A stretch of DNA of 64,000 bases from Leucobacter sp. 7(1). GTDB taxonomy: Bacteria > Actinomycetota > Actinomycetes > Actinomycetales > Microbacteriaceae. The DNA lies in assembly GCF_900163635.1 (NCBI RefSeq), contig NZ_FUID01000026.1:62001-126000 (forward strand), read 5' to 3'. A program made the position numbers and the translations under genes. The notes under the pieces were generated by a model. The model saw only the letters and a list, made by a program, of their open reading frames with translations, made no database searches and was not told the origin of the DNA. Below, one piece after another: positions 39,327-57,273 of this stretch (position 1 is the stretch's first letter; each line of letters starts with the position of its first letter).

Positions 39327-39347
39327 GCGCGATCCTCGGTTCCTTTC

Positions 39348-40310
39348 GTGACGACGTCGACCGCGCCCGCGCCTCCTGCCGCTCCAGTGAGCGGTCGGAA
39401 GCGTGGGCGCGGCGACGCCGTGATCGTGGTCCTGGTGATCACGATCGGTATCGCGATCCTGCTCTACCCGGTTGCCGCGGACTGGTTTTCGTCCCGCAAC
39501 CACAACTCGGAGATCACCGGCTACCGCCAGGATGTCACCGAGATCGACCCGGCCATCCGGGCAGAGGAACTCCAGTTGGCCGATGCGTATAACGCACACA
39601 TGCCCCAGGGTCTCCTCCGCGACCCGTACTCCAGCGCTCCGGTCGCGCCCGAGGAAGAAGACGAGGCGTATTCTGCCTACGAGCAGATTCTCCGAGTCAG
39701 CGACCGCGGTGTGATCGGTGCGGTCAGCTACCCGTCGCTTGGCATTACCCTGCCGCTCTCGCACGGGACGTCGGATGAGGTGATCTCAAAGGGTGCTGGC
39801 CATCTGTACGGGTCTTCGCTGCCCGTGGGCGGGCCCTCCACACACTCGGTGCTCACAGCGCACTCGGGGCTCGCCAACGCACGACTGTTCACCCCGCTGG
39901 TGGCTGGCGCGCGGGTGGGGGATAGCTTCTCCGTCGAAGTGCTCGGGGAGAAGCACTACTACGAGGTGCGTTCGGTGCGCAACGTGCTTCCCGACAACAC
40001 CGAGTCTCTCCGCATTGAAGCGGGGAAGGACGTCGTGACGCTGATCACTTGCTCGCCGATCGGTGTGAATAGCCACCGCCTCCTCGTTCGGGGTGAACGG
40101 GTTCCAGGGCCTGATGCTGACTCGGGTGCTCTGCACAGCGACGAACTGAGCGCCGGTTTCCCCTGGTGGATCCTGGTGCTGATTGGCGGTGCCGGGGCGA
40201 CCGCCGGGGCGCTCACGCTCCAGCACCGAGCTCGGCAGCGGCGCCGAATTGCGGCACGTGCGGTAACGCCTGTAGCCGATGCCGCTCAGCGAGGGTTCGT
40301 CTCCGAATAA
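39348..40310 (+). CDS. Class C (pilin-polymerising) sortase
   Basis: 320 residues from a GTG at 39348, with no obvious ribosome-binding site; 21 bases after the pilin gene. An N-terminal membrane helix spans about 23-42. The DPY of RDPYSS (92-94) matches the lid motif of class C sortases, which covers the active site. The catalytic triad is His172 (LTAHSGL), Cys235 (TLITCSP) and Arg244 (NSHRLLVRGER). A second membrane helix near 277-297 (WILVLIGGAGATAGALTL) with a basic tail is also class C typical. It should cleave LPLTG of the backbone and join it to the pilin-motif lysine of the next subunit. Confidence 0.95.
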   Translation: MTTSTAPAPPAAPVSGRKRGRGDAVIVVLVITIGIAILLYPVAADWFSSRNHNSEITGYRQDVTEIDPAIRAEELQLADAYNAHMPQGLLRDPYSSAPVAPEEEDEAYSAYEQILRVSDRGVIGAVSYPSLGITLPLSHGTSDEVISKGAGHLYGSSLPVGGPSTHSVLTAHSGLANARLFTPLVAGARVGDSFSVEVLGEKHYYEVRSVRNVLPDNTESLRIEAGKDVVTLITCSPIGVNSHRLLVRGERVPGPDADSGALHSDELSAGFPWWILVLIGGAGATAGALTLQHRARQRRRIAARAVTPVADAAQRGFVSE

Positions 40311-40353
40311 CGCTGTGGGTTATCCTGAAGGCCGAGACTTCGGGGGATGGTCT

Positions 40354-43020
40354 ATGGCAAGCGAACACACAGGGGAAACATTGCTACCGGCTGGGGCGGC
40401 GGCGATAAGTCTCGTGCCCCCGCAACCCGGCACCGCGATCCCGCAACAGCGTTTCACTGCGATTGAGCGTGAGCGATTGTTTCCTCACGGGATCGCCCCG
40501 ATCACGCTGTTTTCCGGGCCCGCGGGGATGGGGAAGACCGTGCTCGCGAGCCAGTGGGTCAGAAGCGCTGATCTTGCGCACATGCGCGTGTGCTGGGTGC
40601 GAGTGTCCGAAGCCGGCAGTGGGCCGGGGGATCTCTGGCGAGCAGTGCGCGAGGCGCTCACCGGCGAAGAAGTGTGCGAGGAGCGCGGCTCAGCGCTGGG
40701 TAGCGCGGCTCGGATCGTTGTCGCGCAAGAACGCACCGCGGCGCACCGCGCCGTGACGCGCCTCACCGGGCCAACGATGCTTGTCATCGACGATTATCAG
40801 CGCCTCACGCGGTCGGCGCTCGACCTGGAGCTTGCTGAGCTCCCGGAATTGAGCGCCCAGCTGCACCTCACCGTGCTTTCTCGCCGATTCGCCGCGCTTG
40901 ATGGCCCGCTGGTTGCCGCGCGCAGCATCGTTCAGGTGCTGCGCGGCGATCACTTCGCGTTCACCGCCGACGATTCGCGGGACCTCGGACGCCGGCTCGG
41001 GATTGCGAGTGCAGCGGTAGCGGATCGCATCCACGTGGGTGCGGGAGGGTGGCCCTATGCGGTGCGCCTCTTGCTAAAGGCGATTTCCGACGGCGCGACT
41101 GTGGACGATCTCGATGCGATCAGCGAACGATTCGTGACCGACTATACCGAGCGCTCGCTGTCTGCGCTCGGGCAGCGAGCGCTCTACGTCACTGCCGTGT
41201 GCGATCGCGCCAGTATCGAACTGCTGAGCGAAACGATCGGGCTGGCCTACGCCGAAACGGCGTCGATCGTGGACCGCATCTGCGAACTCGGACTGGGGAC
41301 ACTGCACTGGTATCCGGGCGGCGCTCGGCTCCGCTGCCACCCGGGCTTCGCCACCGCGCTGCGACGTCGTGCCCGGCGCGAGCTCGGCGCAACCGAGACC
41401 CGGCAGCTCCAGCACCAGCACGCGATTGAGCTCAGCCACGACGAGCCCGAGCAGGGCATCCGAGCGCTCCTCGCACTGCGGGAGTACACGGACGCGAGCC
41501 GGGCCCTGTCGACAGTCTTCCCGGAACGCATCGGGGCAACTGGGCAGGTCTTCGAGCCACTGCACGGTGTTCCGCTCGAAGACCTGGCGGAGCACCCATT
41601 TCTCCTCGGCGCATTCCTGCTCTCCGAAATCTGGAGCGCAAACTGCACAGTGGACGAGGCCGCAGAAATGCGTGCGGCGCTTCGCCTGGCCGTCGCCCAG
41701 TACGCGGACCCGGCGGAGCCGGAACGGTACTTCCCGATGCGCGCCATACTCGTGGCCGTGGAACGGCTCGATGATGACGTGTGCGCGCTCGAACTTGCCC
41801 GAGAACTCGAGCGTGAACTCGTTGCCGGCTACGCAGCGAACGCATCGGGGGTGAGCTTCACCCCGCTGCACCTTGCCACCCCGTTCATCTTCTCGACAAT
41901 TGCGGAGACCGGGCAGACTTCCGGAGACCTCCGGCTCGCGGCCCGATGCTTCCAACGCGCCGCCGAGTGGGCCGAGCTGCTCGATGCAGAGGCGAAGCAG
42001 TACCGGGCCTACACCGGGATCGCTGTGGTCGCAGCGATCAACGGCGAAATCACCCGAGCCCGCAGCGTGCTTGCCGCGGCGGACGAGCTCACGGAATTGC
42101 TGCCCGAGGGGCACAGCGCGCGAGGCAGTCTCAACGTCACGGTCGCCCAGTTACTCATCGCGGCGGAGGTCGGGGACCGCGTCGCACTGCCTGAGATCCT
42201 TGCCACCGTGACGCATCCGCACGCGACACTGATCGAGTGGCCGTACCTTGCGCTCGGCGAAGCGGAGGTCGCACGCGGCCGGGATGGCAACCTCGCCGCA
42301 ATTGCGGGGCTGGACGCCCGGATCCGGAGTGCTGAGCGCTTCTACCCGCATCGGAACGATCCGCAGCACGTCCTGGAAGCTTACGCCGCACAGGTACTGG
42401 CGACCCACGGAAACTACCGCGAATCCGAAAGCCGCCTGGCGGCACTCCCCGAGCGGCTTCCCGACGGTGTCCTTGGCCGCGCGCGGCTCGCATTGCTCCA
42501 CGGGGACACCGAGACGGCACTCACCCTCAGTTCAGCGCTGCTCAGTGGTCGGGTCAGCACGTGGCTGCGGATCGCGGCGCGGCTGGTGCGCGCGTCCGCT
42601 CACTGGGCGCTGGGGGATTCGCGGGCCGCCTTGACTGACTTCGAAGCGGCGGCCGAGGCGATGGCGAAACACGGCAGCTACAGCGGACTGGAACTTGTTC
42701 CGTTCGACAGTCTGCGCGAGCTCGCCATACATTCCCAGCACCCGCAGGCCGCCGCACTTCTCACCGTGGTCGAGGCGTTGCCCCTATCGAACAGATGCAC
42801 CCCCTATCCCGCCCTCACCGATGCCGAACTCCGGATCCTCGAGGCTGTCGCGGAGTCCTCAGCCTCGCTCCCCGCGATTGCGGAAACGCTGTTCGTCACC
42901 CCTCACACAGTGAAGTTCCACCTCCGAAGCGTGTACCGCAAACTGCGCGTGCAGGGGCGTGAAGCGGCAGCGACGCGTGCCCGCGAGATCGGGCTCGTCG
43001 ATCCGGCGCCCGTGTCCTGA
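40354..43020 (+). CDS. Large MalT-like LuxR-family ATPase regulator beside pilus genes
   Basis: 888 residues from the ATG at 40354 with a GGGGGA box; 43 bases after the sortase gene. It has an intact P-loop, GPAGMGKT (55-62), and a Walker B-like strand MLVIDDYQRL, followed by an ATPase-linked winged-helix region and a long helical TPR-like part. The C-terminal LuxR DNA-binding domain is at about 818-888 (LTDAELRILEAVAES ... TPHTVKFHLRSVYRKL). Such STAND-ATPase regulators respond to a small-molecule inducer through the helical repeats. Its place at the end of the pilus island suggests it controls pilus expression. Unlike the regulator at 809, the nucleotide-binding residues are preserved. Confidence 0.88.
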   Translation: MASEHTGETLLPAGAAAISLVPPQPGTAIPQQRFTAIERERLFPHGIAPITLFSGPAGMGKTVLASQWVRSADLAHMRVCWVRVSEAGSGPGDLWRAVREALTGEEVCEERGSALGSAARIVVAQERTAAHRAVTRLTGPTMLVIDDYQRLTRSALDLELAELPELSAQLHLTVLSRRFAALDGPLVAARSIVQVLRGDHFAFTADDSRDLGRRLGIASAAVADRIHVGAGGWPYAVRLLLKAISDGATVDDLDAISERFVTDYTERSLSALGQRALYVTAVCDRASIELLSETIGLAYAETASIVDRICELGLGTLHWYPGGARLRCHPGFATALRRRARRELGATETRQLQHQHAIELSHDEPEQGIRALLALREYTDASRALSTVFPERIGATGQVFEPLHGVPLEDLAEHPFLLGAFLLSEIWSANCTVDEAAEMRAALRLAVAQYADPAEPERYFPMRAILVAVERLDDDVCALELARELERELVAGYAANASGVSFTPLHLATPFIFSTIAETGQTSGDLRLAARCFQRAAEWAELLDAEAKQYRAYTGIAVVAAINGEITRARSVLAAADELTELLPEGHSARGSLNVTVAQLLIAAEVGDRVALPEILATVTHPHATLIEWPYLALGEAEVARGRDGNLAAIAGLDARIRSAERFYPHRNDPQHVLEAYAAQVLATHGNYRESESRLAALPERLPDGVLGRARLALLHGDTETALTLSSALLSGRVSTWLRIAARLVRASAHWALGDSRAALTDFEAAAEAMAKHGSYSGLELVPFDSLRELAIHSQHPQAAALLTVVEALPLSNRCTPYPALTDAELRILEAVAESSASLPAIAETLFVTPHTVKFHLRSVYRKLRVQGREAAATRAREIGLVDPAPVS

Positions 43021-43067
43021 ACTCCGCGGGTTTCGGGTTTCGGGTCGCGGGCCTGCGACGCGAGCGG

Positions 43068-43754
43068 TTACGGGATGACCGGAAATTCGCGATTCGCGTT
43101 CCACGGCTCGGCCCAGCCGAGTTCGTCAAAGATCGTGGCGAGCAGGATTCCCGTGAAGCCCCACACTGTGTGTGCGCCGAACTGAGGGCCGAGCTTGAAC
43201 GCGGCACCGCGGTGGCTGAAACCCGACCGTGTGAGCACTGACGTGCCGCGGGCCAGGGGGCTCAGGAGCTCGGCGACCGGAGTGCGGAACACCTCCACAG
43301 ATTCGGAATGATCCGCCGCTACGGCGCTCGGGAGCCGCCACCAACCGACAACCGGGGTCACCAGGTTGTTGCTCACCGGGATGTGGATTTCGGGCAATGA
43401 CCCGAGCACCTCGACACCCGCGGGGTCCAGTCCGGTCTCCTCGTGAGCCTCACGGAGTGCGGTCGCCGCGGCATCAGCGTCGCCGTCCTCGACACCGCCA
43501 CCGGGGAACGCGATCTGGCCGGCATGGTGCCGCATCCGATCCGCGCGCCGTGTGAGCAGAACATCGAGCTCCGGTGGCACACTCGTGGCCCCGCCGACCG
43601 CGGGCATCCGATCCAGCGCTCCAAATAGGATGAGCACCGCGGATCGGCGCAGCGGGGTGTCTGCCAGCGCACCCTGAGGCGGGAACTGCAGTCGCAGGTC
43701 GCCCCCCATGAGCGCACGCAGCTCGCGCTGTGCCTCCGCGACTGACCGGTCCAT
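43068..43754 (-). CDS. NUDIX hydrolase, CoA pyrophosphatase-like
   Basis: 228 residues from the ATG at 43754. LLTRRADRMRHHAGQIAFPGG is close to the extra signature that marks NUDIX CoA pyrophosphatases (UPF0035), and the NUDIX box follows with TALREAHEETGL; the first box glutamate position is not conserved, as is usual in this subgroup. GFTGILLATIFDELG is the conserved late segment. The enzyme would split CoA or its oxidised or acylated forms into acyl-phosphopantetheine and 3',5'-ADP. It is divergent from the LysR gene. The upstream in-frame extension is not homologous. Confidence 0.88.
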   Translation of the reverse strand: MDRSVAEAQRELRALMGGDLRLQFPPQGALADTPLRRSAVLILFGALDRMPAVGGATSVPPELDVLLTRRADRMRHHAGQIAFPGGGVEDGDADAAATALREAHEETGLDPAGVEVLGSLPEIHIPVSNNLVTPVVGWWRLPSAVAADHSESVEVFRTPVAELLSPLARGTSVLTRSGFSHRGAAFKLGPQFGAHTVWGFTGILLATIFDELGWAEPWNANREFPVIP

Positions 43755-43832
43755 AGGCGCCAGCCTAGCGGGCGCCGGGTAGGTTAGCACCACACTGCAA
43801 GACAGGGCGACCGACGGCTCAAAGGAGAGTTC

Positions 43833-44756
43833 ATGTCTACGAAACCGCACGCGTTCACGCTTGTGCAGATTCAATATTTTCTCGCGGTCGCCAAAGTCGA
43901 GAGCATGACGCTCGCCGCCGAGATCCTGAGCGTCACGCAGCCCACCCTCTCATCAGCGATGAAGCAGTTGGAACGTGCGCTGGGTGCGAAACTCTTTGTT
44001 CGGACCGAACAGAACCGGCTGCGACTCACCGGTGTGGGCCGAGCCCTCATGGGCGACGCAGAACAGCTCACCCGTGCGGCAGAGCTGGTGGCGGAGAACG
44101 TTGAGAGTACGCAGCGAGATCTCACCGGAGAGCTTGTGGTGGGGGTCTTTTCTCCTATGGCCCCGTTTCGGATTCCCCGCATCCTGCAGGAGTTTGGACA
44201 GCTGCACCCCCGGGTAACCCTCAGCTTCGTCGATGGGAACCAATCAACGCTCCAGCGGATGCTGTTGGACGGGCGGTGCGACGTGGTTATTATGTACAGG
44301 CTCGACCTGGACCGTCGGATACAGACCACGGTTCTCGACCGGATCAGTCCCTACGCGTTGCTGCCAGCCAACCATCGGCTCGCTGTTGAGCGGGGAGAGA
44401 TTCACATGCGGGAACTCCAGGATGAGCCATACGTCATGCTCGATCTGCCGCACACCCGCGAATACTACCTCGGGCTGTTCGAGTGGGCCGGCATTGCGCC
44501 GAACATCCGATACCGACTCGACAGCTTCGAGTCCGTTCGGTCCTTTGTCGGCGCTGAACACGGATACACGATCTTGCATCAGGGCTTTGGGCTGACGCAC
44601 ACCTACTCCGGGGGCACAGTAGAGGCGCGGAGAATTCAGGGTGGACCCCCGCGGCTTGAGATCGTTCTCGGGGCGATGGAAGGGACGCTACAGACTCGCC
44701 GGGCGCGGGCCTTTTCCCGTATCGCCCGCTCAGTCTTTGCTGCAAACCCCAATTGA
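43833..44756 (+). CDS. LysR-type transcriptional regulator
   Basis: 307 residues with a strong AAAGGAGAG box. The N-terminal winged helix-turn-helix (about 10-70) reads ALTLAAEILSVTQPTLSSAM-like sequence, ending ALGAKLFVRTEQNRLRLTGVG. The periplasmic-binding-protein-like effector domain follows (GELVVGVFSPMAPFRIPRIL, then HPRVTLSFVDGN). It precedes, in the same direction, the amidase-dehydrogenase-ABC cluster and is the probable activator of that cluster with one of its metabolites as effector. GC content is lower than in the genes to the left. Confidence 0.9.
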   Translation: MSTKPHAFTLVQIQYFLAVAKVESMTLAAEILSVTQPTLSSAMKQLERALGAKLFVRTEQNRLRLTGVGRALMGDAEQLTRAAELVAENVESTQRDLTGELVVGVFSPMAPFRIPRILQEFGQLHPRVTLSFVDGNQSTLQRMLLDGRCDVVIMYRLDLDRRIQTTVLDRISPYALLPANHRLAVERGEIHMRELQDEPYVMLDLPHTREYYLGLFEWAGIAPNIRYRLDSFESVRSFVGAEHGYTILHQGFGLTHTYSGGTVEARRIQGGPPRLEIVLGAMEGTLQTRRARAFSRIARSVFAANPN

Positions 44757-44801
44757 TCAACTGTTATCGAGGCGCTCTATAGGGGTGAGTTGAAACCGTA
44801 A

Positions 44802-44831
44802 TTGGAAGAGTCCGAACCGTCCGAGCACTAT
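44802..44831 (+). promoter_or_regulatory. Possible sigma-70-like promoter for amidase cluster
   Basis: TTGGAA (44802-44807) and CACTAT (44826-44831) are 18 bases apart. Two copies of CTATAGG (44777-44783 and 44828-44834) in the same gap could be part of a LysR-type binding region. If this promoter is used, the amidase must start at 44877 or 44898, not at the TTG at 44802. Weak evidence. Confidence 0.3.
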
Positions 44832-44876
44832 AGGTCCCACACCGGAACACAGGAGTTCTCGAAGGCGGGTACACGG

Positions 44877-46346
44877 TTGGACAATGACGTTTGCTTCATG
44901 AGTGCAACAGCGCTCATCCCAGAGTTTCGCGCAGGCACTCTGTCGCCAGTTGAGGTGCTTGAATCCCAGATTGCTCGGGACTTGGCACATGGCGCGGTGA
45001 TCAACGCATTCACCGAACGACTGCACGATGAAGCACGAGAACATGCCCGTGCGGCAGAGCTCCGGTACCGCCGTGCGGAACCGGGCGAACCGCTTCCTCA
45101 GTTGCTCGGAGTTACCGTTGCGACCAAAGAGAAACACCAGATTGCGGGGCACCGAATCGAGCTGGGTCTCCTCGGGCATTCACGGGTCATCGCGGAGCAT
45201 AATCACCCGGTCGTGGATCGGCTCCGAAACGCTGGTGCGATCATACATGCACGCACCACAACGCCGGAGTACAGTTGCGCGACCGTCACCCACAGCCTGC
45301 TTTGGGGGACAACCCGGAATCCTTGGAACTTGGAGTTTTCCCCCGGGGGGTCTTCGGGCGGGGCCGGAGCTGCACTGGCGGCGGGGTTCACTACACTCGC
45401 TACAGCATCCGATATCGCGGGGTCGACGAGACTGCCTGCGGCTTTCACCGGGACGGTGGGGTACAAAGCGCCAGCTGGCCGGATCCCAGGAGATGGCCCG
45501 CTGGCGGCAGACTGGTATCGAGGAGACGGTCCCATGGGGCGGACGGTGGCCGATGTCGCTCTACTGACGAACGTATTGAGTGGCCTCCACGCAGGTGATG
45601 CGGCTTCGATCCCGGGCGGTCCGCACATCCGAACAGACTCCGAGGCGACGCCCAGACTTCGTGTGGCACTTAGCGTGGATCTTGGCGGGTACGCTGTGGA
45701 CGCGGACGTTGCTCGGCATACCCGTCGCATTGCGGAGCTACTGGCCGCGGCGGGGCACACCGTTGAAGAAGTCAACCTGCAGATTCGGCACGATGACGTC
45801 CACCGAACAGCGTTTACTCACTTCGGAAACATCCTCGGCCCTGCCATGCAGGAGCCGGTATCGAGAGCCGGAGATGTGTCCGCCTATACACGGCGATTCC
45901 TCGAAGATGCAGCGACGCAGGCGCGGCGGAATACGTTGTATGACTCGATAGAGGGGGAGCACCGTATCCAGCAGCTGCTGGCAGACGTCTTTACCCGTTT
46001 CGACCTTCTGATCTGCCCAACATCCGCGGTGGCCGCTCTCGATGCCGCGGGCGATTACCTAGATGGCGTCTCCGTCGATGGCACGCATCTCGAACACTAT
46101 TGGCAGGCGCATATGACCCTGCCCTTCAATATCGCGAATCGGCTTCCCGTCCTTGCGGTACCCAGTGGCATATCGCGTTTCGGTATCCCCACGGGGGTGC
46201 AACTCATCGGGTCACCGTTCGCTGAACAGCTCGTCTTCTCTGTCGGGTTGGAGATCGAGCGTGCCGAGCGATGGGACCTCAAACACCCCGGCACTGAACT
46301 CGGCAACACCTCACAACCGGAATCGTCAGAAGGAGTTACAAAATGA
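44877..46346 (+). CDS. Amidase signature family hydrolase
   Basis: About 489 residues from the TTG at 44877 (AAGGCGGG upstream); ATG 44898 is an alternative. The Ser-cisSer-Lys triad is visible: Lys in VATKEKHQIAG and the two serines in FSPGGSSGGAGAALAAGF, followed by DIAGSTRLPAAFTGTVGYK, the nucleophile-bearing segment. These enzymes hydrolyse carboxamides to acid and ammonia. The second half (FNIANRLPVLAVPSG ... GVQLIGSPFAEQLVF) is standard. The motif TRL rather than IRxP near the nucleophile is slightly unusual. It is the first enzyme gene after the LysR regulator and overlaps the dehydrogenase start by 4 bases. Confidence 0.88.
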   Translation: MDNDVCFMSATALIPEFRAGTLSPVEVLESQIARDLAHGAVINAFTERLHDEAREHARAAELRYRRAEPGEPLPQLLGVTVATKEKHQIAGHRIELGLLGHSRVIAEHNHPVVDRLRNAGAIIHARTTTPEYSCATVTHSLLWGTTRNPWNLEFSPGGSSGGAGAALAAGFTTLATASDIAGSTRLPAAFTGTVGYKAPAGRIPGDGPLAADWYRGDGPMGRTVADVALLTNVLSGLHAGDAASIPGGPHIRTDSEATPRLRVALSVDLGGYAVDADVARHTRRIAELLAAAGHTVEEVNLQIRHDDVHRTAFTHFGNILGPAMQEPVSRAGDVSAYTRRFLEDAATQARRNTLYDSIEGEHRIQQLLADVFTRFDLLICPTSAVAALDAAGDYLDGVSVDGTHLEHYWQAHMTLPFNIANRLPVLAVPSGISRFGIPTGVQLIGSPFAEQLVFSVGLEIERAERWDLKHPGTELGNTSQPESSEGVTK

Positions 46347-47449
46347 AGCAGTTCAAAGCGCTCATGTTCGAAGGTGGCACCAGCGAACCATACATCGGAG
46401 ACGCAGTGGTTCGAGAGCCCAAGGGCACCGAGGTTCTGGTGCGTCTTCTGGCAGCTGGGATCTGCCATTCTGACTTGCACGTGTTGCATGGCGACAATCC
46501 GGCAACCGAGAGGATCGTCCTTGGGCATGAGGGGGCTGGGATCGTTGAAGCGATCGGCCCTGACGTCACAGCAGTGGGTCTCGGCGACCAAGTTGTCATG
46601 TCGTGGTGGGCCCCGTGTGGGATCTGCGCCAACTGCAAGAATGCGCGGGAATGGTTGTGCCAGGACACGAAGGCGCTGCAGAACACGCTTCCCGACGGGA
46701 CTTCTCCTCTGGTTGGGGCTGATGGTGAGTCCCTCAAGCCCTTCCTGGGCGTAGGAGCGTACGCGGAATACACGCTTGTGCCCCAGGCTGCAGTTGTGAA
46801 AGTGCCGCACAGCGTACCCTCCAGCGTTGCAGCACTGATCGGATGCTCAGTGACCACCGGGATCGGTGCGGTGCTCAACACGGCTGAATTCCGCGCGGGC
46901 CAGACTGCAGTGGTAGTTGGCTGCGGTGGCGTGGGGCAGTCGGTGATTATGGGCCTCAAACTCGCGGGAGCCGCGGAGATCATTGCGGTCGATCTATCCG
47001 AAGATCGCCTGGACCAAGCTCGCTTAGTGGGTGCTACGCACGTGGTGAATCCAGGGGCAGTCGACTCAGTAGAGGCGGTGCTTGCCCGAGTTCCCAATGG
47101 TGTCGATTTCGCATTTGACGCGATCGGTCGGCCCCAGACGATTCCGACACTTCTTCCGATGGTCAGATCTGGTGGTGCAGGAGTTGTTGTAGGACTGCCT
47201 CCGCGGGAGGAAGAGATCGGGATCAAAGTGTGGGAAATGGTGGTCACCGGGAAACGGCTGCTCGGGTGCTACTACGGGAGCTCACGACCCCAAGTCGATT
47301 TCCCGAAGATGATCGACCTCTACCTCGCGGGAATGCTTGATATTGAGTCGCTGATTGGCGAGGAAGTCCCGCTTGAGCAGGCGGCTGCGGGCGTGAAAGG
47401 CCTCGAACGCGCCATTGGGAAGCGGAAAATCGTCCGCTTTGGAATCTAG
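46343..47449 (+). CDS. Zinc-dependent alcohol dehydrogenase
   Basis: 368 residues, ATG overlapping the amidase stop, AAGGAG box upstream. Medium-chain dehydrogenase: catalytic zinc ligands in GICHSDLHVLHGD (Cys, then His and Glu in LGHEGAGIVE), structural-zinc cysteines in PCGICANCKNAREWLC, and the NAD-binding VVVGCGGVGQSVIMGLKLAG with Asp (VDLS) for NAD rather than NADP. GCYYGSSRPQVDFPKMIDLY matches the class III/aryl-alcohol-type subgroup. It would oxidise an alcohol to an aldehyde, which the next enzyme could oxidise further. Confidence 0.92.
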   Translation: MKQFKALMFEGGTSEPYIGDAVVREPKGTEVLVRLLAAGICHSDLHVLHGDNPATERIVLGHEGAGIVEAIGPDVTAVGLGDQVVMSWWAPCGICANCKNAREWLCQDTKALQNTLPDGTSPLVGADGESLKPFLGVGAYAEYTLVPQAAVVKVPHSVPSSVAALIGCSVTTGIGAVLNTAEFRAGQTAVVVGCGGVGQSVIMGLKLAGAAEIIAVDLSEDRLDQARLVGATHVVNPGAVDSVEAVLARVPNGVDFAFDAIGRPQTIPTLLPMVRSGGAGVVVGLPPREEEIGIKVWEMVVTGKRLLGCYYGSSRPQVDFPKMIDLYLAGMLDIESLIGEEVPLEQAAAGVKGLERAIGKRKIVRFGI

Positions 47450-47461
47450 GAGGACCCGGAA

Positions 47462-48853
47462 ATGACACGATACGTATCTCTGAATCCTGCGACCGGCCAA
47501 GAGCGGGCCCGGTTCCCTGAAGCAACCCAGGCTCAGATCGATGAGACGCTTGTCCGGTCCGCAGCCTCACGCACCGCTCTCTTGGACATGGGAGTCGCCG
47601 GACGCGCGGCAGCACTTATGCGGGTGGCGGCTATGTACCGCGACCGTAGCCAGGAACTTGGCGAACTCATCGCTTTGGAGATGGGGAAACCTATTGGCCA
47701 AGCAGTCTGGGAGGCGGAGCATTGCGCTGATATCTACAGCTACTACGCATCCGAGGGGCCATCGTACATCGCCGATGAACCGATGCAGCGACCATACGGA
47801 GGAGGGAGTGGTGTCATTCGCACCGAGGCGATCGGCCCGCTGCTGGGGATCATGCCGTGGAATTTCCCGTACTACCAGGTCGCTCGGTTTGCTGGCCCCA
47901 ATCTGCTCATCGGAAACCCGATCTTGCTGAAGCACTCGCTCATCTGCGGAGGCTCGGCGGCGGTGATGGAAGAGATTTTTCAGGCTGCAGGATTTCCCGA
48001 GTTTGCGTATCAAAATCTGTACGCAACACATGACCAAGTAGGACAGATGATTCACGATGAGCGCGTACGAGGAATCTCGCTCACAGGGTCGGAGCGTGCT
48101 GGTGCTCGCGTCGCGGCGCAGGCGGGGCAGGCCCTCAAGAAGGTAGTGCTTGAACTGGGTGGCTCGGACGCATTTGTCGTGCTGGAAGACGCGGATGTCA
48201 CCGCCGCGGCAGCTGCCGCGGCTCGTGGAAGGTTTGGGAACGCCGGCCAATCGTGTACCTCGTCAAAGCGCATCATCGTTGTCGACGAGATTTACGATGC
48301 ATTTGTCGCTGCACTCGAGGGCGAGATTCGGGAGCTCCAAGTTGGAGACCCACTGGATCCGGCCAACGGGGTGGGGCCGCTTTCCTCGGCAAGCGCTCGC
48401 GCTGAAATCGCAGAACAGGTTTCTGACGCTCGGGAGCGCGGGGCTCACGTGCGTATCGGGGGAGAAGAGCTGCCGGGCGGAGGATTCTTCTACGCACCGA
48501 CACTGATTACGGATGTCCCGGAAGACGCCCGCATCTTTCGTGAAGAAGTCTTCGGTCCGGTTGCCGTTGTGTACCGAGCTCAGTCCGAGGCGGACGCCAT
48601 CCGCCGTGCAAATGACAGTGACTTTGGGCTCGGCGGATCCGTGTTTTCCACCGACGCTGTGCGTGCGCATCGGGTCGCCGAGCAGCTCGAAACCGGAATG
48701 GTATGGATCAACTCCGAACCCGCGTCGGCAATCGATGGCCCGTTCGGCGGGGTGAAGCGGTCCGGGACTGGCCGCGAGCTTGGCCGCTTCGGCCTAGCGG
48801 AGTTTTCTGTCAAGAAGCTCATCCGGAACCTCTCCGATTTCTCGCCAGCCTGA
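47462..48853 (+). CDS. Aldehyde dehydrogenase, succinate-semialdehyde dehydrogenase-like
   Basis: 463 residues, 12 bases after the alcohol dehydrogenase gene (GGAGGA box). NAD(P)-dependent ALDH fold: MPWNFPYYQVARFAGPNL, the general base Glu in VLELGGSDAFVVLED, the catalytic Cys in GNAGQSCTSSKRI, and EEVFGPVAVVYR. The shortened N-terminus and GGVKRSGTGRELGRFGLAEF end are typical of the Sad/YneI-type succinate-semialdehyde dehydrogenase group, so a short-chain semialdehyde is a plausible substrate. Confidence 0.9.
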   Translation: MTRYVSLNPATGQERARFPEATQAQIDETLVRSAASRTALLDMGVAGRAAALMRVAAMYRDRSQELGELIALEMGKPIGQAVWEAEHCADIYSYYASEGPSYIADEPMQRPYGGGSGVIRTEAIGPLLGIMPWNFPYYQVARFAGPNLLIGNPILLKHSLICGGSAAVMEEIFQAAGFPEFAYQNLYATHDQVGQMIHDERVRGISLTGSERAGARVAAQAGQALKKVVLELGGSDAFVVLEDADVTAAAAAAARGRFGNAGQSCTSSKRIIVVDEIYDAFVAALEGEIRELQVGDPLDPANGVGPLSSASARAEIAEQVSDARERGAHVRIGGEELPGGGFFYAPTLITDVPEDARIFREEVFGPVAVVYRAQSEADAIRRANDSDFGLGGSVFSTDAVRAHRVAEQLETGMVWINSEPASAIDGPFGGVKRSGTGRELGRFGLAEFSVKKLIRNLSDFSPA

Positions 48854-48889
48854 ATTGGCTCTCAGACAGAATCCATCGATAGGAAAACT

Positions 48890-49681
48890 ATGACCGGGCA
48901 ACATCCGATCCTTGAGATCAAGCACATGCACAAAGCGTTTCTCGTTCACGGGGAACCGAGTGTGGTGCTGCGTGACGTCACGCTGAACGTTCATGAGGGC
49001 GAGTTTGTGTCGCTGATCGGCCCAAGCGGGTGCGGGAAGACCACGGTCCTCCGAACAGTCGCCGGGTTTGCACCTGAGAGCAGCGGAGAAGTTCGTTTGA
49101 ATGGCGAACCGATTCACAAGAATCGCGGGAACGTGGGAGTCGTATTCCAAGCTCCCAACCTACTCCCGTGGCTCACCGCCTCACAGAACGTGGAGCTGGC
49201 GCTGAGGCAATTTGGCATCAGGAGCAAGGCCGAACGCCGCGAGCGTGCAGCAAGCGCGCTCGCGGAAGTGGGGCTGGGCCAAGCGCTCGGAAAGTACCCA
49301 GCTGAGTTGTCTGGAGGAATGCAACAGCGCGTGGGGATCGCCCGCGCCCTCGCGCATGATCCAGAGGTGCTCCTGATGGATGAGCCATTTGGGGCACTCG
49401 ATGCCATCACCCGAGAACAATTGGACTTTCAGCTCCTGGACTTCTGGGAAGCGCAACGCAGGACCGTGTTGTTCGTGACCCACTCGATTGAAGAAGCAGT
49501 CCTGCTTTCCGACAGGGTGATCTGCATGAAGCCGAATCCGGGCGAGATTGTCGCGGATCACCGGGTTTCGTTTTCCCGACCGCGCACCCTGGCGCAGTTG
49601 GGCGATCCCGCTTTCATCGATGAGGTTCGTGAGGTTCGCAGTCACATCGAGCAGTACTACGAGCAAAGGAACGAGAAGTGA
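48890..49681 (+). CDS. ABC transporter ATP-binding protein, NitT/TauT type
   Basis: 263 residues. Walker A GPSGCGKTT (about 45-53), Q-loop in VVFQAPNLLPWLTA, signature LSGGMQQRVGIARAL, Walker B VLLMDEPFGALD and the H-loop in FVTHSIEEA are intact. LLPWLTASQNVELAL is the pattern of nitrate/sulfonate/taurine importers (SsuB/TauB). It pairs with the permease overlapping its stop and with the lipoprotein at 50558. Confidence 0.94.
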   Translation: MTGQHPILEIKHMHKAFLVHGEPSVVLRDVTLNVHEGEFVSLIGPSGCGKTTVLRTVAGFAPESSGEVRLNGEPIHKNRGNVGVVFQAPNLLPWLTASQNVELALRQFGIRSKAERRERAASALAEVGLGQALGKYPAELSGGMQQRVGIARALAHDPEVLLMDEPFGALDAITREQLDFQLLDFWEAQRRTVLFVTHSIEEAVLLSDRVICMKPNPGEIVADHRVSFSRPRTLAQLGDPAFIDEVREVRSHIEQYYEQRNEK

Positions 49682-50514
49682 ACGCGCAACAGCTCACCGC
49701 CGAGCGGGAGACCCGCTATGAGGAAGCGATCGCAAGCGTCCAAGCTGAGTCGCGGAAAACGAGAGCCTCTCGACGTCGAGGGACACTCCTTGCCGCGATC
49801 ATCTTCGTGGGCGTCGTCGGGCTCATTGAGGTTGTCTTGGCCGTCGCACGGGTCCCCGAATGGACAATCCCTCGACCCACGAGAATCGCGGAAGCTTGGT
49901 GGCAGAATCTCGGGAACGTCATCTTGCCGAACGCCGGAATTACTCTGCTCGAGGTCTTGATCGGGTTTGTCTGCGGTGCCGTGATCGGCGTGGTCCTCGG
50001 GGGAGTAATCGGTGAGTACCAGATCCTCGATAAGATCCTTTCGCCGTTCATCTTGATCCTCATCACGACTCCGGTTGTCGCGCTGGTGCCATTGCTCATG
50101 CTTTGGTTCGGGTACGGGCTTGAGACAAAGATCATTGCCGCGGCTATCGCGTCATTTCCTCCCATCATGATGAACACGGTGGCGGGGCTGACGAAGACGC
50201 CAGCTATGCACCTAGACCTGATGAAGTACCTGGGGGCGAGCCGCTGGGAAGTGTTCACTCGAGTGAAATTCCTGAACGCGCTGCCGTCAATTTTTACCGG
50301 CCTCACGATCGGCTCGATCTTCGCACTGATCACAACGGTCGCGGCAGAATTTGTGGGTGGCTCGACAGGGCTGGGAAATCGCCTTATCTACTACGCGAGC
50401 ACGGTTCAAACTCCGCTCATGTTCGCGATCATTCTCTCGCTGGCGGTCATCGGGATCATTATCTACGTCTCGGTCGCGGCCCTGGCGCGCCGAGTCGTCA
50501 CTTGGCAGAACTAG
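49678..50514 (+). CDS. ABC transporter permease, SsuC/TauC type
   Basis: 278 residues from a GTG overlapping the ATPase stop by 4 bases. The first ~38 residues are charged and cytoplasmic, followed by about six membrane helices. The ATPase-contact loop reads KYLGASRWEVFTRVKFLNALPSIF, the EAA-type motif of this permease class, and PRPTRIAEAWW is the usual early periplasmic segment. It forms the translocation path of the importer. Confidence 0.92.
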   Translation: MNAQQLTAERETRYEEAIASVQAESRKTRASRRRGTLLAAIIFVGVVGLIEVVLAVARVPEWTIPRPTRIAEAWWQNLGNVILPNAGITLLEVLIGFVCGAVIGVVLGGVIGEYQILDKILSPFILILITTPVVALVPLLMLWFGYGLETKIIAAAIASFPPIMMNTVAGLTKTPAMHLDLMKYLGASRWEVFTRVKFLNALPSIFTGLTIGSIFALITTVAAEFVGGSTGLGNRLIYYASTVQTPLMFAIILSLAVIGIIIYVSVAALARRVVTWQN

Positions 50515-50557
50515 TTCACCCGGGACTTTGCTGCATCAGTTGTGAAACGGAAAGGAA

Positions 50558-51658
50558 ATGACAATGAGGTCAATCAGAATGAAACGAACTCTCTTCGGTC
50601 TGGGGAGCGTTGTTGCCGCTGGAGCACTGTTGCTCGGGTGCGCCGCAGCTCCAAGTGGAGGCACGTCACCTGGCGGAGAGGACGCCGCATCGGATGGTGT
50701 GCGCGATGTCAGAGTCGTGCTCGCGGTGAACAAAGAACTCGCTGGTGAGAACGCCAATCTTCATGTGGCAAATGAACTTGGCTACGCAGAAGAGAACGGG
50801 ATCCGATTTGTCTTGGAAAGCGCGCTCGGAAGCACCGACGGAACGAAACTTGTCTCAACTGGGCAGGCAGAAGTGGCATACCCCTCACCGTTTGTCGCAT
50901 TGACCGCCCGGGCCTCCGGAGTCCCAATCGTTTCGGTATTCGATAATCTCCAGACCAACATCTTCGGATTCGCGGTGAAACCGAACAGCCCGATTGCTTC
51001 CATCGCCGATCTGAAAGGAAAGAAGGTGGCATTGGGAGACGGAGGATGGACAGTGATTGCGGCACCACTGCTCGCGAGTGCCGGCCTCACTATTGACGAC
51101 GTGGAGTGGGTGGTGGCCGGAGAACGTCGGCAGCTCGCAGTGGAGCAGGGCGACGTCGACGCGGTCCTCACCTGGGAAATGGAGTACCAGAATTGGGCGG
51201 ACCAAGGACTTGAGTTCCGGGTGTTTGGCCAGGACTCGGTCCCCTATCAGTCCAATACGCTCGTGATGAGCGAGGAGCTGGTGAAATCGGATCCGGATCT
51301 TGTCAAGGCGATCGCCCGGGCGTCGGCCATGGGTGCGGAGTTTATCCAGCACAACCCCGAAGCAGGGGCGCAGATTGCTACGCAAACCTATGAGGGGACA
51401 ACTCCGCAGTCGCTGGAAGGTATGACAGCGGTGGTCACCAAGCTGGCCGAGTTGATGGCCGGAGGCGAAGGCGGAACTGATCGGTACGGTGCGCATCGGG
51501 CCGACGACTGGCAAGGTCTTGCGGACTCGCTCTTTGCAGATGGCGTCATCGGCGCCGAGGTAGACGTTTCCACGATGCTCTCCGACGATTTCATCGACTA
51601 TGCGAATGATTTTGATCGAGATCGTGTTCGTCAGGACGCTGAGGGCTACAAGCCGTAG
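50558..51658 (+). CDS. ABC substrate-binding lipoprotein (NMT1/SsuA-like)
   Basis: 366 residues with an AAAGGAA box. The lipobox LLGC places the lipidated cysteine at residue 28. The mature protein has the two-lobe NMT1/THI5-like fold of nitrate-, sulfonate- and pyrimidine-type binding proteins: NANLHVANELGYAEENGI, GTDGTKLVS-like STDGTKLVSTGQAEVAYP, KGKKVALGDGGWTVIAAPLL, and QGDVDAVLTWEMEY. Ligand unknown; the neighbouring amidase and dehydrogenases suggest an amide or related hydroxylated compound. Confidence 0.92.
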   Translation: MTMRSIRMKRTLFGLGSVVAAGALLLGCAAAPSGGTSPGGEDAASDGVRDVRVVLAVNKELAGENANLHVANELGYAEENGIRFVLESALGSTDGTKLVSTGQAEVAYPSPFVALTARASGVPIVSVFDNLQTNIFGFAVKPNSPIASIADLKGKKVALGDGGWTVIAAPLLASAGLTIDDVEWVVAGERRQLAVEQGDVDAVLTWEMEYQNWADQGLEFRVFGQDSVPYQSNTLVMSEELVKSDPDLVKAIARASAMGAEFIQHNPEAGAQIATQTYEGTTPQSLEGMTAVVTKLAELMAGGEGGTDRYGAHRADDWQGLADSLFADGVIGAEVDVSTMLSDDFIDYANDFDRDRVRQDAEGYKP

Positions 51659-51669
51659 CGCAGGGAACG

Positions 51670-51708
51670 CGCGAGGGCTGGCTGACTCTGTGCAGACCAG
51701 CCCTCGCG
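51670..51708. terminator. Bidirectional terminator after ABC importer genes
   Basis: CGCGAGGGCTGG (51670-51681) and CCAGCCCTCGCG (51697-51708) make a perfect 12-bp stem with a 15-base loop between the convergent lipoprotein and carboxylase epsilon genes. Confidence 0.75.
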
Positions 51709-51718
51709 TACGTGGAGA

Positions 51719-52069
51719 TTACCCCTCTGCGAGCAGGTCCGAGATGCCCTCGGGCACGCGCTGCGACCGGGCCCAGGGCTCACGGTCGCGGCGCGCCACA
51801 CGTTTCATCTGCTGAGATTCTTCGGAGCGTACCTGCGTCAGCACGGCAATCACGGCGGCGCGCTCCTCCGCGCTCACCTGACGCGTCACGAAGTGAATGT
51901 CCTCGCCGTGGATCGCGTCATCCTGCGGGCCCAGCTCTTCGCGCTTGGCCGCGTCGCGGGCGGCCGCGTCGGGCGGCAGTTGGCCGTCGGTGAGGTCGTC
52001 ACTGTTGGGATCGCCGCGGAGCTCGGCGGCGATCCCCTCAGCGCTTGTTGGGGTCTGCACGGCGCTCAC
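51719..52069 (-). CDS. Acyl-CoA carboxylase epsilon chain
   Basis: 116 residues from a GTG that overlaps the beta-chain stop by 4 bases. The last half, [21 protein letters not shown] followed by a Trp-containing segment (REPWARSQR), matches the AccE/PccE small subunit found only in actinobacteria, which binds and stabilises the alpha-beta complex. The N-terminal half is acidic and low-complexity; epsilon chains often have such variable ends. Position directly after the beta chain supports the call. Confidence 0.85.
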
Positions 52070-53667
52070 AGGGGGATGTTGCCGTGCTTCTTGGCGGGCT
52101 GCTCGGTGCGCTTGCCGCGCAGGCCGCGCAGCGACTTGATTACGGCGAGGCGCGTGCCCGCTGGCTCGAGCACGTTGTCGAGCTCGCCGCGCTCGGCAGC
52201 GAGGAATGGGCTCGTCACATCGGCCGTGTACTTCGCGGTCAGCTCGGCGCGCAGCGCCTCAACGTCCTCGCCGCGCTCGGCGGCGGCCGCGAGCTCCTTG
52301 CGGTACAGGATGTTGACGGCACCGGAACCACCCATGACGGCGATTTCGGCCGTGGGCCAGGCGATGTTGAAATCGGCACCCATCTGCTTCGAGCCCATGA
52401 CGATGTACGCCCCACCGTAGGCCTTGCGCGTGATGATCGTGACGAGCGGCACAGTTGCCTCAGCGTAGGCGTAGAGCAGCTTCGCGCCGCGGCGGATCAC
52501 GCCCTGCAGCTCCTGGTCGGTGCCGGGCAGGTACCCGGGCACATCGACGAGGGTAAGGATCGGGATCGAGAACGCGTCACAGAACCGCACGAAGCGTGCA
52601 GCCTTCTCGCTCGCGTCGATGTTCAGGGTGCCCGCCATCTGGTTCGGCTGGTTCGCAACGATACCGACCGTGCGGCCTTCGACGCGGCCGAAGCCGATGA
52701 GCATGTTGGGGGCGAACAGCGGCTGCACCTCGAGGAAGTCGCCGGAGTCGAGGATTCCCTCGATGACAACCTTCATGTCGTAGGGCTGGTTCGGGCTGTC
52801 CGGGATCAGGGTGTTGAGGCGGCGATCCGCATCCGTGATTTCGAGCGCAGTGTCACTGTCGTAGACGGGAGCCTCTGCCAGATTGTTGTCTGGAAGGTAG
52901 CTGATCAGGGCGCGCGCGTAGTCAAGCGCATCGTGCTCGTCGCTCGCGAGGTAGTGGGAGACGCCGCTCGTCTTGTTGTGCGTGAGTGCGCCGCCGAGCT
53001 CCTCGAAGCCGACCTCCTCGCCCGTGACAGTCTTGATGACGTCGGGGCCGGTAACGAACATGTGGCTTGTCTTGTCGACCATGATGACGAAGTCAGTGAG
53101 GGCGGGGGAGTACACCGCGCCGCCGGCCGAGGGGCCCATCACGATGGAGATCTGCGGGATGACACCCGAGCACATCGTGTTCAGGCGGAAGATGTTGGCA
53201 TATTTGGAGAGCGAAACGACACCCTCCTGGATGCGCGCTCCGCCCGAGTCCAGGATTCCGAAGACGGGAGCGCCGGTCTTCAGCGCGAACTCCATCGCCT
53301 TCACGATCTTCTCGCCGGCGACTTCGCCGAGCGAGCCACCGAAGGTTGTGAAGTCCTGCGAGTACACCACGACCTGTCGGCCGTGGATCGTGCCCGCACC
53401 GGTGACCACCGAGTCGCCGAACGGGTGGCTCTTTTCCATGCCGAAGCCCACGCTGCGGTGCTTCACGTACTTGTCGAACTCAACAAACGAGCCCGGGTCT
53501 AGCAGCGCGGTGATGCGCTCGCGCGCAGTCATCTTGCCGCGCGGGTGCTGCTTGGCCGCGGCCGCAGCATCGCGATCGCCCACGGCTTCCTGGTACTTGC
53601 GGCGATGGTCGGCGATGCGCCCCGCGGTGGTGGCCGGGGTCGCTGGAGTGGCGTTTTCTGCAGTCAC
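52066..53667 (-). CDS. Acyl-CoA carboxylase beta chain (carboxyltransferase)
   Basis: 533 residues from the GTG at 53667; longer extension to 53718 is unlikely. Two crotonase-like halves form the carboxyltransferase: the first with [35 protein letters not shown] and [17 protein letters not shown], the second with [20 protein letters not shown] and [21 protein letters not shown]. These are propionyl/acetyl-CoA carboxylase beta (AccD5/PccB) signatures. It transfers the carboxyl group from biotin on the alpha chain (11270-13036) to acyl-CoA. It is divergent from birA. Confidence 0.94.
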
Positions 53668-53963
53668 GGATGCCAGCCTAGCGCGGAGCCCATGCCTGTA
53701 CCCTCCGAACCTCTCCAATGGAATCCCGGATCCTTCGTCACTTCTCTACCAAAAGTGGCCCTCACGCGTCTGCCGCGCCCACCTCCCGCTCGCTCATCGG
53801 CACGGAGATTCTGCGGTACTGCGGAGATTTTTCGTGGATATCGGTACCTCGCCCGAGAATCTCCGACCCGCTCGTTTGTCGTGACTGGACCCGTGCTTCA
53901 CGACGAGCGTGTGCGTGGCCTGAGGAACGGCAGATTGAGCGCCTTCCGGTATACCGTGGAGGC
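53668..53963. promoter_or_regulatory. Divergent accD-birA intergenic region with repeated CGGAGATT element
   Basis: 296 bases without a gene. CGGAGATT occurs at 53803-53810 and GGAGATTT at 53823-53830 in one direction, and AATCTCCG at 53858-53865 in the other; the outer pair extends to a perfect 10-bp inverted repeat (CGGAGATTCT 53803-53812, AGAATCTCCG 53856-53865). A shared operator for the carboxylase and biotin ligase genes is possible. It does not resemble the known BioQ site. Confidence 0.4.
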
Positions 53964-54800
53964 ATGGAACTGACGCGCACCGCCGAACTTCTGCCCAGAG
54001 TGATCTGGCGGGAGAGCTCGCCTTCCACGAACGCGGAGCTGCGGGACCTCGCGCAACGCGCGGAAACCCCGCTGGCTGACGGCACGATGCTGCTGACCTC
54101 GGACCAAACTGCCGGTCGTGGTCGCTTGGATCGCGGTTGGGTCACGCCGCCCGGGCAGTCGCTCGCGGTGTCGGTACTTGTGCGACACCCTGGTACGAGC
54201 ACGGGCTTGGGCCTGAGCTGGGTGCCCCTGCTTGTCGGCTCTGCGATGACCACCGCACTGCAGCGACGGTTTGGTGAGGGGAAGCGCGTCGGCGTGAAGT
54301 GGCCAAACGATGTACACGTGCGCGATGAAGAAGACGCGATCGCTGGGCGACCGGGGCAGAAGCTCTGCGGGATCCTGTGCGAGCTGCTGCCGGATGGTGG
54401 CGTAGTTGTGGGGACAGGGCTGAACCTCTTGATTCCCGAGGAGGAGCTGCCCACAGACCGAGCTTCCTCGCTTCTCGCGGCAGGTGCTGACGTGAACTGT
54501 GCGATGAATCTGTTCGAGCCCGCCGGCATCGAGCTCGCCGATCGCATTCTGGTCGACTACGTTACCGCGCTGCGGGAATTGCTCACGCTTGCGACAGCGC
54601 GGCCGGATGCTGCGCGTGCACGGGTCGCACGTCACTCACTCACGCTCGGCACTGAGGTGCGGGTACACCTTCCCGGCGATGAGATCGTCGACGGACGTGC
54701 GCGAGCCCTCGCTGAGGACGGGGCGCTCATCGTGGACTTGCCGACCGGTGGGGTCCTCACGGTCTCCGCCGGCGATGTTGAACACCTGCGTGTGCCCTAA
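53964..54800 (+). CDS. birA: Biotin-[acetyl-CoA-carboxylase] ligase, non-DNA-binding type
   Basis: 278 residues from the ATG at 53964 with a GTGGAGGC box. It makes biotinyl-AMP and transfers biotin to the carrier-domain lysine of carboxylases. Seen: SSPSTNAELRDLA, the biotin/ATP loop TSDQTAGRGRLDRGW (GRGR variant), VGVKWPNDVHV, and KLCGILCE. The chain begins directly with the catalytic domain, so it lacks the DNA-binding helix-turn-helix of E. coli BirA and cannot itself be the repressor. The C-terminal SH3-like cap is present (LPTGGVLTVSAGDVEHLRV). Its stop overlaps that of the convergent coiled-coil gene. Confidence 0.94.
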   Translation: MELTRTAELLPRVIWRESSPSTNAELRDLAQRAETPLADGTMLLTSDQTAGRGRLDRGWVTPPGQSLAVSVLVRHPGTSTGLGLSWVPLLVGSAMTTALQRRFGEGKRVGVKWPNDVHVRDEEDAIAGRPGQKLCGILCELLPDGGVVVGTGLNLLIPEEELPTDRASSLLAAGADVNCAMNLFEPAGIELADRILVDYVTALRELLTLATARPDAARARVARHSLTLGTEVRVHLPGDEIVDGRARALAEDGALIVDLPTGGVLTVSAGDVEHLRVP

Positions 54801-55618
54801 CCCGGCACAGCGCGCCCGGCCGGGGCGGGCGGCTCCTGGGGCAGTCCGCGGCCTCCACGTGAATCTCCAAGGTGGGTTGCGATCGCGTACAAGCGATCGT
54901 CGAAGCGAGAGAAGTCCGACCTGAGTTCGACTCGGAGGGCCTGGGACTCCGTGGAGATTCGGGAGCCGAGGCTGTCGATTCGCGTCGTGAGTTTGGCATC
55001 GACTCCATCCATCCGGGAGGTGAGATTGGCGTCGATGCTGTCGATCCGGGCGGTGAGGTTGTCGATTCGCGTCGTGAGTTTGGTATCGACGCTGTCGATT
55101 CTGGCGGTGAGGCTGGCGTCAAGCTTGTCGATTTGTGAGGTGAGTCTCGTATCGAGTTCGCTGATTTGCGAGGTGAGTCTCATGTCGAGTTCGCTGATTT
55201 GCGACGTCTGTCGGGTGTCGAGTTCGCCGATTTGCGAGGTGAGCCGAGTATCGAGTTCGCCGATCTGCGAGGTGAGCCGAGTGTCGAGTTCGCCGATCTG
55301 CGAGGTGAGCCGAGTATCGAGTTCGCCGATCTGCGAGGTGAGCCGAGTGTCGAGTTCGCCGATTTGCGAGGTGAGCCGAGTATCGAGTTCGCCGATCTGC
55401 GAGGTGAGCCGTGTGTCGAGTTCGCCGATTTGCGAGGTGAGCCGAGTATCGAGTTCGCCGATCTGCGAGGTGAGCCGAGTGTCGAGTCCCTGAATCTGTT
55501 CCGTGTGTGCGTCCGCCCGCTGGTCGGCCTGCCTGGAGATTGTGCGGAGACCCACCAGGGTTGTTGCCATGACCGCGGCCACTGCTGAGATCAGCGGGAT
55601 GAGTGCTGGTGCGTCCAC
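54797..55618 (-). CDS. Coiled-coil protein with 11-residue tandem repeats
   Basis: 273 residues from the GTG at 55618 (GGAGGG box). One N-terminal hydrophobic helix (about 4-22, ALIPLISAVAAVMATTLVGL) probably anchors it in the membrane. Residues about 44-154 consist of ten copies of an 11-residue unit of the form GELDTRLTSQI, followed by related diverged units (DSVDTKLTTRIDN) to about residue 215; an 11-residue period is the signature of a right-handed or near-straight coiled coil. The C-terminal part (ELRSDFSRFDDRLYAIATHLG) resembles a short helical module seen at the ends of many bacterial coiled-coil proteins. Function unknown; possibly a membrane-tethered spacer or scaffold. Confidence 0.75.
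   Translation of the reverse strand: MDAPALIPLISAVAAVMATTLVGLRTISRQADQRADAHTEQIQGLDTRLTSQIGELDTRLTSQIGELDTRLTSQIGELDTRLTSQIGELDTRLTSQIGELDTRLTSQIGELDTRLTSQIGELDTRLTSQIGELDTRQTSQISELDMRLTSQISELDTRLTSQIDKLDASLTARIDSVDTKLTTRIDNLTARIDSIDANLTSRMDGVDAKLTTRIDSLGSRISTESQALRVELRSDFSRFDDRLYAIATHLGDSRGGRGLPQEPPAPAGRAVPG
55154..55483. repeat. Ten 33-bp coding tandem repeats with 66-bp higher-order pattern
   Basis: Ten contiguous 33-base units: two diverged ones (55154, 55187) and eight nearly identical ones starting at 55220, 55253, 55286, 55319, 55352, 55385, 55418 and 55451. In the eight, the base before the final TC alternates A,G,A,G,A,G,A,G without exception, so the array grew as 66-base pairs of units. 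The differences are synonymous on the coding (reverse) strand. Confidence 0.95.
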
Positions 55619-55756
55619 GGTGCCCTCCGATCGTTGCGTGGCTGCTCGAATGTGCCCCACGATACGTGCTCACCACGGATCGTGAAAGCACGAGGTTCTC
55701 GGAGGCCACGAACTGTGGATAGGTCGTTGAAACCGATGATTGTGAGCGACGCAAGA

Positions 55757-55788
55757 GTGGGCCCCGAAAAATGATTCTCGGGGCCCAC
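55757..55788 (-). terminator. Terminator of permease-amidohydrolase-permease operon
   Basis: GTGGGCCCCGA (55757-55767) and TCGGGGCCCAC (55778-55788) form a perfect 11-bp stem with a 10-base loop, 32 bases past the second permease's stop on the reverse strand. Confidence 0.75.
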
Positions 55789-55819
55789 CCGTGTGCGGCG
55801 GAACAGGGGAGTCAGCGGG

Positions 55820-57235: not shown

Positions 57236-57273
57236 GATGTCTCCCTTGACTCTGTGCAGCAGTGTTACTGGAA

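Follow-up and report, generated by a model that had tools for sequence, protein, structure and literature searches.

A horizontally acquired seven-gene island of Leucobacter sp. 7(1), encoding a LysR regulator, an amidase, two dehydrogenases and an ABC importer, as a candidate catabolic unit for amides or carbamates

Importers of the NitT/TauT type, such as TauABC, SsuABC and ThiXYZ, consist of an ATP-binding cassette (ABC) ATPase, a permease and an NMT1-type binding protein, and so does the importer encoded by a block of seven genes in Leucobacter sp. 7(1), found in a 64,000-nucleotide stretch of contig NZ_FUID01000026.1 (hereafter the window). The block also encodes a LysR-family regulator, an amidase, a zinc-dependent alcohol dehydrogenase (ADH) and an aldehyde dehydrogenase (ALDH). 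The amidase has its fold and sequence family in common with 6-aminohexanoate cyclic dimer hydrolase (3a2p), aryl acylamidase (4yji) and the urethanases UMG-SP2 and UMG-SP3, and succinate-semialdehyde dehydrogenases (SSADHs) of the Sad type provide the top curated models and solved relatives of the ALDH. Amidase-signature (AS) enzymes that release alcohols, which ADHs then turn into aldehydes, are described for an engineered biosensor in a passage of PMC12866861, and according to a passage of PMC8997832, the majority of the enzymes reported to degrade ethyl carbamate are amidases. Both cases are analogies and not evidence on the window amidase.

All of the gene families in the block are already known, and only their combination is new, within what was searched; no description of the seven-gene cluster was found in the literature, judged by titles and the starts of abstracts. 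Our preferred interpretation, for which we see roughly even chances of being right or wrong, is that of an acquired catabolic island under LysR control, whose products take up an amide or carbamate, cleave it hydrolytically and carry out a two-step oxidation of the primary alcohol so formed. If this is true, the island would be a compact seven-gene unit for amide or carbamate use, and its order of hydrolase, ADH and ALDH would suit carbamate breakdown.

An inserted island between a Nudix gene and PccB

The horizontal acquisition of the island is well supported. In a sister genome (G225), homology to the window ends at position 43779 on the left and resumes at position 51719 on the right, and the corresponding flanks of the sister locus (L167) end one base apart (2210 and 2212), so the window carries an insertion of about 7939 bp that holds the seven genes. 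The Nudix gene at this junction is present in 52 of the 54 genomes of the genus. Among the 29 non-self loci of the genus obtained from the best 30 Nudix matches, 26 have the Nudix gene and PccB close together, with gaps of 276-703 bases and the island missing; in the other three (L168, L182 and L195), PccB is absent from the 1.5 kb fetched and other open reading frames (ORFs) adjoin the Nudix gene. The G+C content of the island is 0.598, against 0.648-0.697 in the 402 overlapping segments of the same length outside it. A reading made earlier from the letters alone (the sequence-only reading) had already suspected horizontal acquisition from G+C counts of 25 of 60 at 48001-48060 and 45 of 60 at 16201-16260; these counts are exact, and the empty sites in relatives and the low G+C of the island bear out the suspicion.

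Seven ORFs lie on the + strand of the island (Table 1), each encoding a protein with the expected Pfam domain above its gathering score (7 of 7), and no further genes were recognised inside it. The compact, co-directional and catabolic-looking cluster that had been claimed for this place is therefore real, and the two stop-start overlaps ascribed to it are exact, each of 4 bp: ATGA at 46343-46346 joins the amidase and ADH genes, and GTGA at 49678-49681 joins the ATPase and permease genes. The other short intergenic gaps in the block measure 12, 36 and 43 bp. Three start candidates are available for the amidase (TTG 44802, TTG 44877 and ATG 44898), of which TTG 44877, behind AAGGCGGG, was chosen by eye as the preferred, if uncertain, start. 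The terminator that had been placed after the last gene stands in part: a hairpin with perfect 12-bp arms (51670-51681 and 51697-51708; -32.8 kcal/mol) follows the binding-protein gene, but it has no T run and is not among the calls of a terminator scan, which found 5 against a shuffled mean of 5.7.

Table 1. Features of the seven-gene block, in window coordinates
Feature	Position	Strand	Support or remark
LysR-family regulator	43833..44756	+	PF00126 63.7 bits; PF03466 113.7 bits
Amidase-signature hydrolase	44877..46346, start uncertain	+	PF01425 235.9 bits against a gathering score of 27
Zinc-dependent ADH, class I/III-like	46343..47449	+	PF08240 90.1 bits; PF00107 92.7 bits
ALDH, SSADH-like	47462..48853	+	PF00171 434.4 bits
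ABC importer ATPase, TauB-like	48890..49681	+	PF00005 121.7 bits
ABC importer permease	49678..50514	+	PF00528 102.6 bits
Substrate-binding lipoprotein, NMT1/SsuA-like	50558..51658	+	PF09084 116 bits; lipobox LLGC by eye
Strong hairpin 3' of the last gene, without T run	51670..51708		
Candidate operator, two copies of GCwCTATAGG 51 bp apart, LysR-amidase gap	44774..44834		could be chance
Inserted island, about 7939 bp, seven genes	43780..51718		alignment of flanks to sister locus L167

The Nudix-PccB junction (window 43779/51719) may be a recurrent insertion site. SDR-like and TetR-like ORFs are found there in L168, and GNAT-like and nucleotidyltransferase-like ORFs in L195, all named by eye. 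A LuxR-family regulator encoded near the insertion site (40279-43020) shows a weak likeness to MalT (73.6 bits against a cut-off of 537) and has a 79% identical counterpart at the same place in G225.

The amidase and the cassette of its relatives

The window amidase is placed in the AS family by PF01425, by its motifs and by its fold. The motifs KEKH at 79, PGGSSGG at 151 and DIAGSTR at 174 (numbering from 44892) hold the Lys, cis-Ser and Ser residues, which we take to be its catalytic triad. A structure model (pLDDT 89.0), built from an alignment (A3) of the window protein and 25 of the 80 loci introduced below, gave aryl acylamidase 4yji in a fold search (TMq 0.86, E 9.6e-35), together with the cyclic dimer hydrolase, a hydrazidase and urethanases, at 25-28% identity. 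These fold matches single out no substrate. Sequence scores of 100.5 bits to UMG-SP2 and 148.4 bits to 6-aminohexanoate cyclic dimer hydrolase give no specific grouping, and at E ≤ 1e-60 the amidase alignment, used as a profile against solved structures, found no match. Five plasmids hold amidase relatives, all below 60% identity.

When genome contigs were scanned with the aligned amidase and three relatives, 126 relatives were confirmed, and the best 80 (L056-L135) were kept. At 67 of these best 80, genes for a LysR regulator, an MFS symporter and an M20 hydrolase lie upstream of the amidase gene in the same direction, and this and the other neighbour counts at the 80 loci are lower bounds, since bit-score thresholds were applied and several loci end at contig ends. 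The LysR-symporter-M20-amidase cassette was found in Arthrobacter, Cryobacterium, Leucobacter, Brevibacterium and Mycolicibacterium genomes, and no description of it was found in the literature, judged as above; the analysis thus brings a widespread actinomycete cassette to light. In a representative (L043), the symporter scores 369.0 bits to the metabolite:H+ symporter family, below the cut-off of 443.45, and the M20 protein exceeds the cut-offs of a hydantoinase/carbamoylase model (290.0 against 204) and of one allantoate amidohydrolase model (450.2 against 424).

Sequence comparison indicates that the window LysR and amidase belong to the lineages of this cassette, whose LysR is 34-47% and whose amidase is 48-58% identical to the window proteins. 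In an alignment with stops written as X, 144 columns show at least 95% invariance across the 67 cassettes, and the window amidase keeps 137 of them. In a tree of 83 of 89 loci, made after removal of rows that scored too low or contained an internal stop, its branch is long (1.04, where the median is 0.091), so its position there is unsure. Within the genus, M20 relatives at least 60% identical occur in 22 of 54 genomes (including G210, in two fragments), and the best 18 non-self LysR matches and the best 20 non-self amidase matches adjoin cassette M20 genes. The window cluster contains no symporter or M20 gene, and by the M20 test the genome of the window lacks the cassette, because its best M20 relative is just 47% identical.

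We tentatively suggest, while holding it to be rather less than probable, that LysR and amidase form a portable core with swappable partners: within the cassette these are a symporter and an M20 hydrolase, and here the core would have been rewired to an ABC importer, ADH and ALDH, giving a private route for the use of a hydroxylated amide or a carbamate ester. If true, this would be a case of partner replacement around a regulated catabolic core.

Rarity of the set, the importer and the dehydrogenases

Conserved co-occurrence of the five gene families, which the sequence-only reading had proposed to look for, failed to appear: the ADH-ALDH-ABC unit is present at 0 of the best 80 of 126 amidase loci. 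Single matches at these loci number 4 for ALDH, 3 for ADH, 3 for the ATPase and 0 for both permease and binding protein, and only L132 combines two of these kinds, an ATPase match and an ALDH match that lie about 6 kb apart on the other strand. Under the refuting condition set by the sequence-only reading, this result speaks against conservation of the pathway, though a private pathway is unaffected. None of 459 matching plasmid records holds 80% of the island DNA. Plasmid regions of RHA1, Arthrobacter sp. 68b, Rhodococcus qingshengii and Agrobacterium leguminum, considered as a clue to the substrate, gave none; on the A. leguminum plasmid, the annotation places an amidase, as well as a further binding protein, about 5-6 kb away from the binding protein that was matched.

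Pfam domains confirm the NitT/TauT-type importer that had been proposed, its ATPase, permease and NMT1-type binding protein being encoded by adjacent genes. The scores to models of taurine, sulfonate and nitrate importers all lie below the cut-offs (TauB, 228.8 against 357; TauC, 83.8 against 342; SsuA_fam, 93.1 against 163.5; ntrCD, 217.8 against 291.8). Relatives of the binding protein are scarce. At E ≤ 1e-40, none was found in the 53 other genomes of the genus or in a sample of 395 other genomes of the order; at E ≤ 1e-20, 7 of the 53 have one (29-31% identity), and at E ≤ 1e-35, so do 3 of 395 others in a phylum sample (34-36%). For most genomes sampled from the order and the phylum, scoring covered only the best 5 first-look candidates, and for most of the class sample only the best 6. 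Scanned against genome contigs, the binding protein gave 40 pattern matches, 0 of them confirmed, and two plasmids hold relatives of 29-30% identity. A single-sequence structure model of this protein reached a pLDDT of 36.5, too low to be of use.

A second importer cluster in the same genome (L052, G000:C48) encodes an ATPase, a permease, a binding protein and an ALDH that are 46, 36, 29 and 41% identical to those of the window, together with an M19 dipeptidase and a thiamine pyrophosphate (TPP) enzyme, and similar genes are found in L055 (G200). The genes for binding proteins of G930 and G859 (33-35%; L046 and L047) adjoin ATPase and permease genes and are near M20-like and creatinase-like ORFs, named by eye.

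The solved chains nearest to the ADH are class I ADHs, and its best curated models are mycothiol-dependent formaldehyde dehydrogenase (273.6 bits, cut-off 512.9) and NDMA-dependent alcohol dehydrogenase (269.1, cut-off 440). ADH relatives at E ≤ 1e-80, 42-54% identical, occur in 26 of 198 other genomes of the family, and one other genus has the nearest (54%), in 2 of its 27 genomes; a class sample of 315 other genomes yielded none at E ≤ 1e-105, and neither did a plasmid search at E ≤ 1e-80. The resemblance of the ALDH to SSADHs, claimed from the sequence, holds for its best curated models (PRK09406, 441.5 bits; PRK13968, 409.2 bits) and for its nearest solved relatives, which are 3vz0 and then Sad, with other SSADHs among them; the two model scores nevertheless lie well below the NCBIfam cut-offs of 730 and 855.

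The ADH-relative loci whose surroundings were inspected include L041, L048, L049 and L050. In L048, relatives of the ADH (46%) and ALDH (32%) are adjacent on the same strand. Those in L041 (54 and 49%) lie about 6 kb apart on opposite strands, with a same-family M20 hydrolase beside the ALDH, and no ALDH match was seen in L049 and L050 (ADH relatives of 48-49%). By these sequence matches, ADH-ALDH pairing is not unique, but the seven-gene set is unique within what was searched. On plasmid p2MP of Arthrobacter sp. 68b (L197), a 50% identical ALDH is near LLM flavin oxidoreductases, a flavin reductase and an amidohydrolase, possibly another catabolic pathway.

Proposed pathway, its alternatives and related systems

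In the proposed pathway, the binding protein and ABC importer would take up a small amide or carbamate, which the AS enzyme would hydrolyse with its putative Lys/cis-Ser/Ser triad. The zinc ADH would turn a primary alcohol, either already present in the substrate or freed from a carbamate or an N-acyl amino alcohol, into an aldehyde, from which the ALDH would make a carboxylate that feeds into central metabolism; the nitrogen would leave as ammonia or amine. The LysR regulator may sense the substrate or an intermediate. Functional coupling of these steps is plausible, on the strength of gene order, overlaps and a single insertion.

Several findings weigh against such a pathway on an acquired island. 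The chief one is that no second genome with the whole seven-gene set was found among the relatives and contigs searched, so functional linkage lacks backing from conservation. In addition, all seven proteins score below every NCBIfam cut-off shown, in a comparison of the best 25 models at most per protein. The hallmarks of an integrative mobile element (integrase, tRNA target and target duplication) are missing from the island: neither the ORF list nor Pfam reveals an integrase or recombinase in the set of seven, the region 38000-58000 is free of tRNA genes, and no target duplication was found, the junction regions (200 bp each) sharing at most 8 nt, which is ordinary for random pairs.

The substrate may be of a different kind. 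A 4-hydroxybutyramide-like hydroxyalkanamide could be imported, deamidated to a hydroxy acid and oxidised via a semialdehyde, for example succinate semialdehyde, to a dicarboxylate. This route, which goes back to the sequence-only reading and which we think unlikely, draws on the SSADH models and SSADH structures, Sad included, that head the matches of the ALDH, but the ALDH is well under the SSADH cut-offs, and models, sequence and fold comparison revealed no amidase feature pointing to aliphatic hydroxyamides. 4-Hydroxybutyramide is a possible substrate, and a carbamate or an N-acyl amino alcohol explains the presence of amidase, ADH and ALDH equally well.

The genes may also not belong together at all, LysR and amidase being a remnant of the cassette that scavenges nitrogen and the ADH-ALDH and ABC genes serving unrelated substrates as neighbours by assembly. 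The nearest relatives of the amidase do stand with a symporter and an M20 hydrolase; a 54% identical ADH (G197) has no amidase or NMT1-type importer matches in 20 kb, and binding-protein relatives of 33-36% identity in three distant genomes have no ADH, ALDH or amidase matches in the 5.6-20 kb fetched. Against this patchwork, which we regard as doubtful, speak the two 4-bp overlaps, one of which bridges the amidase-ADH join, and the presence of the whole set in one clean insertion. It is very improbable that the dehydrogenases act in detoxification or reductively, the ADH as an aldehyde reductase or both enzymes in clearing a toxic aldehyde, with no assimilation pathway: the formaldehyde and NDMA-dependent models at the top of the ADH list would fit such a role, but the ADH falls under their cut-offs and a dedicated importer argues for nutrient uptake.

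The catabolic island that we favour resembles other systems in its parts and departs from each of them. Its importer has the composition of NitT/TauT importers, but all three proteins lie under the curated cut-offs shown. The ALDH differs from the SSADH/Sad type in lying under every curated cut-off shown, and its best plasmid relatives are about 51% identical. The amidase is only 25-28% identical in the fold search to 3a2p, 4yji and UMG-SP2/SP3, and none of these is conspicuous as its specific relative. The actinomycete cassette has a symporter and an M20 hydrolase where the window cluster has an ABC importer, an ADH and an ALDH instead.

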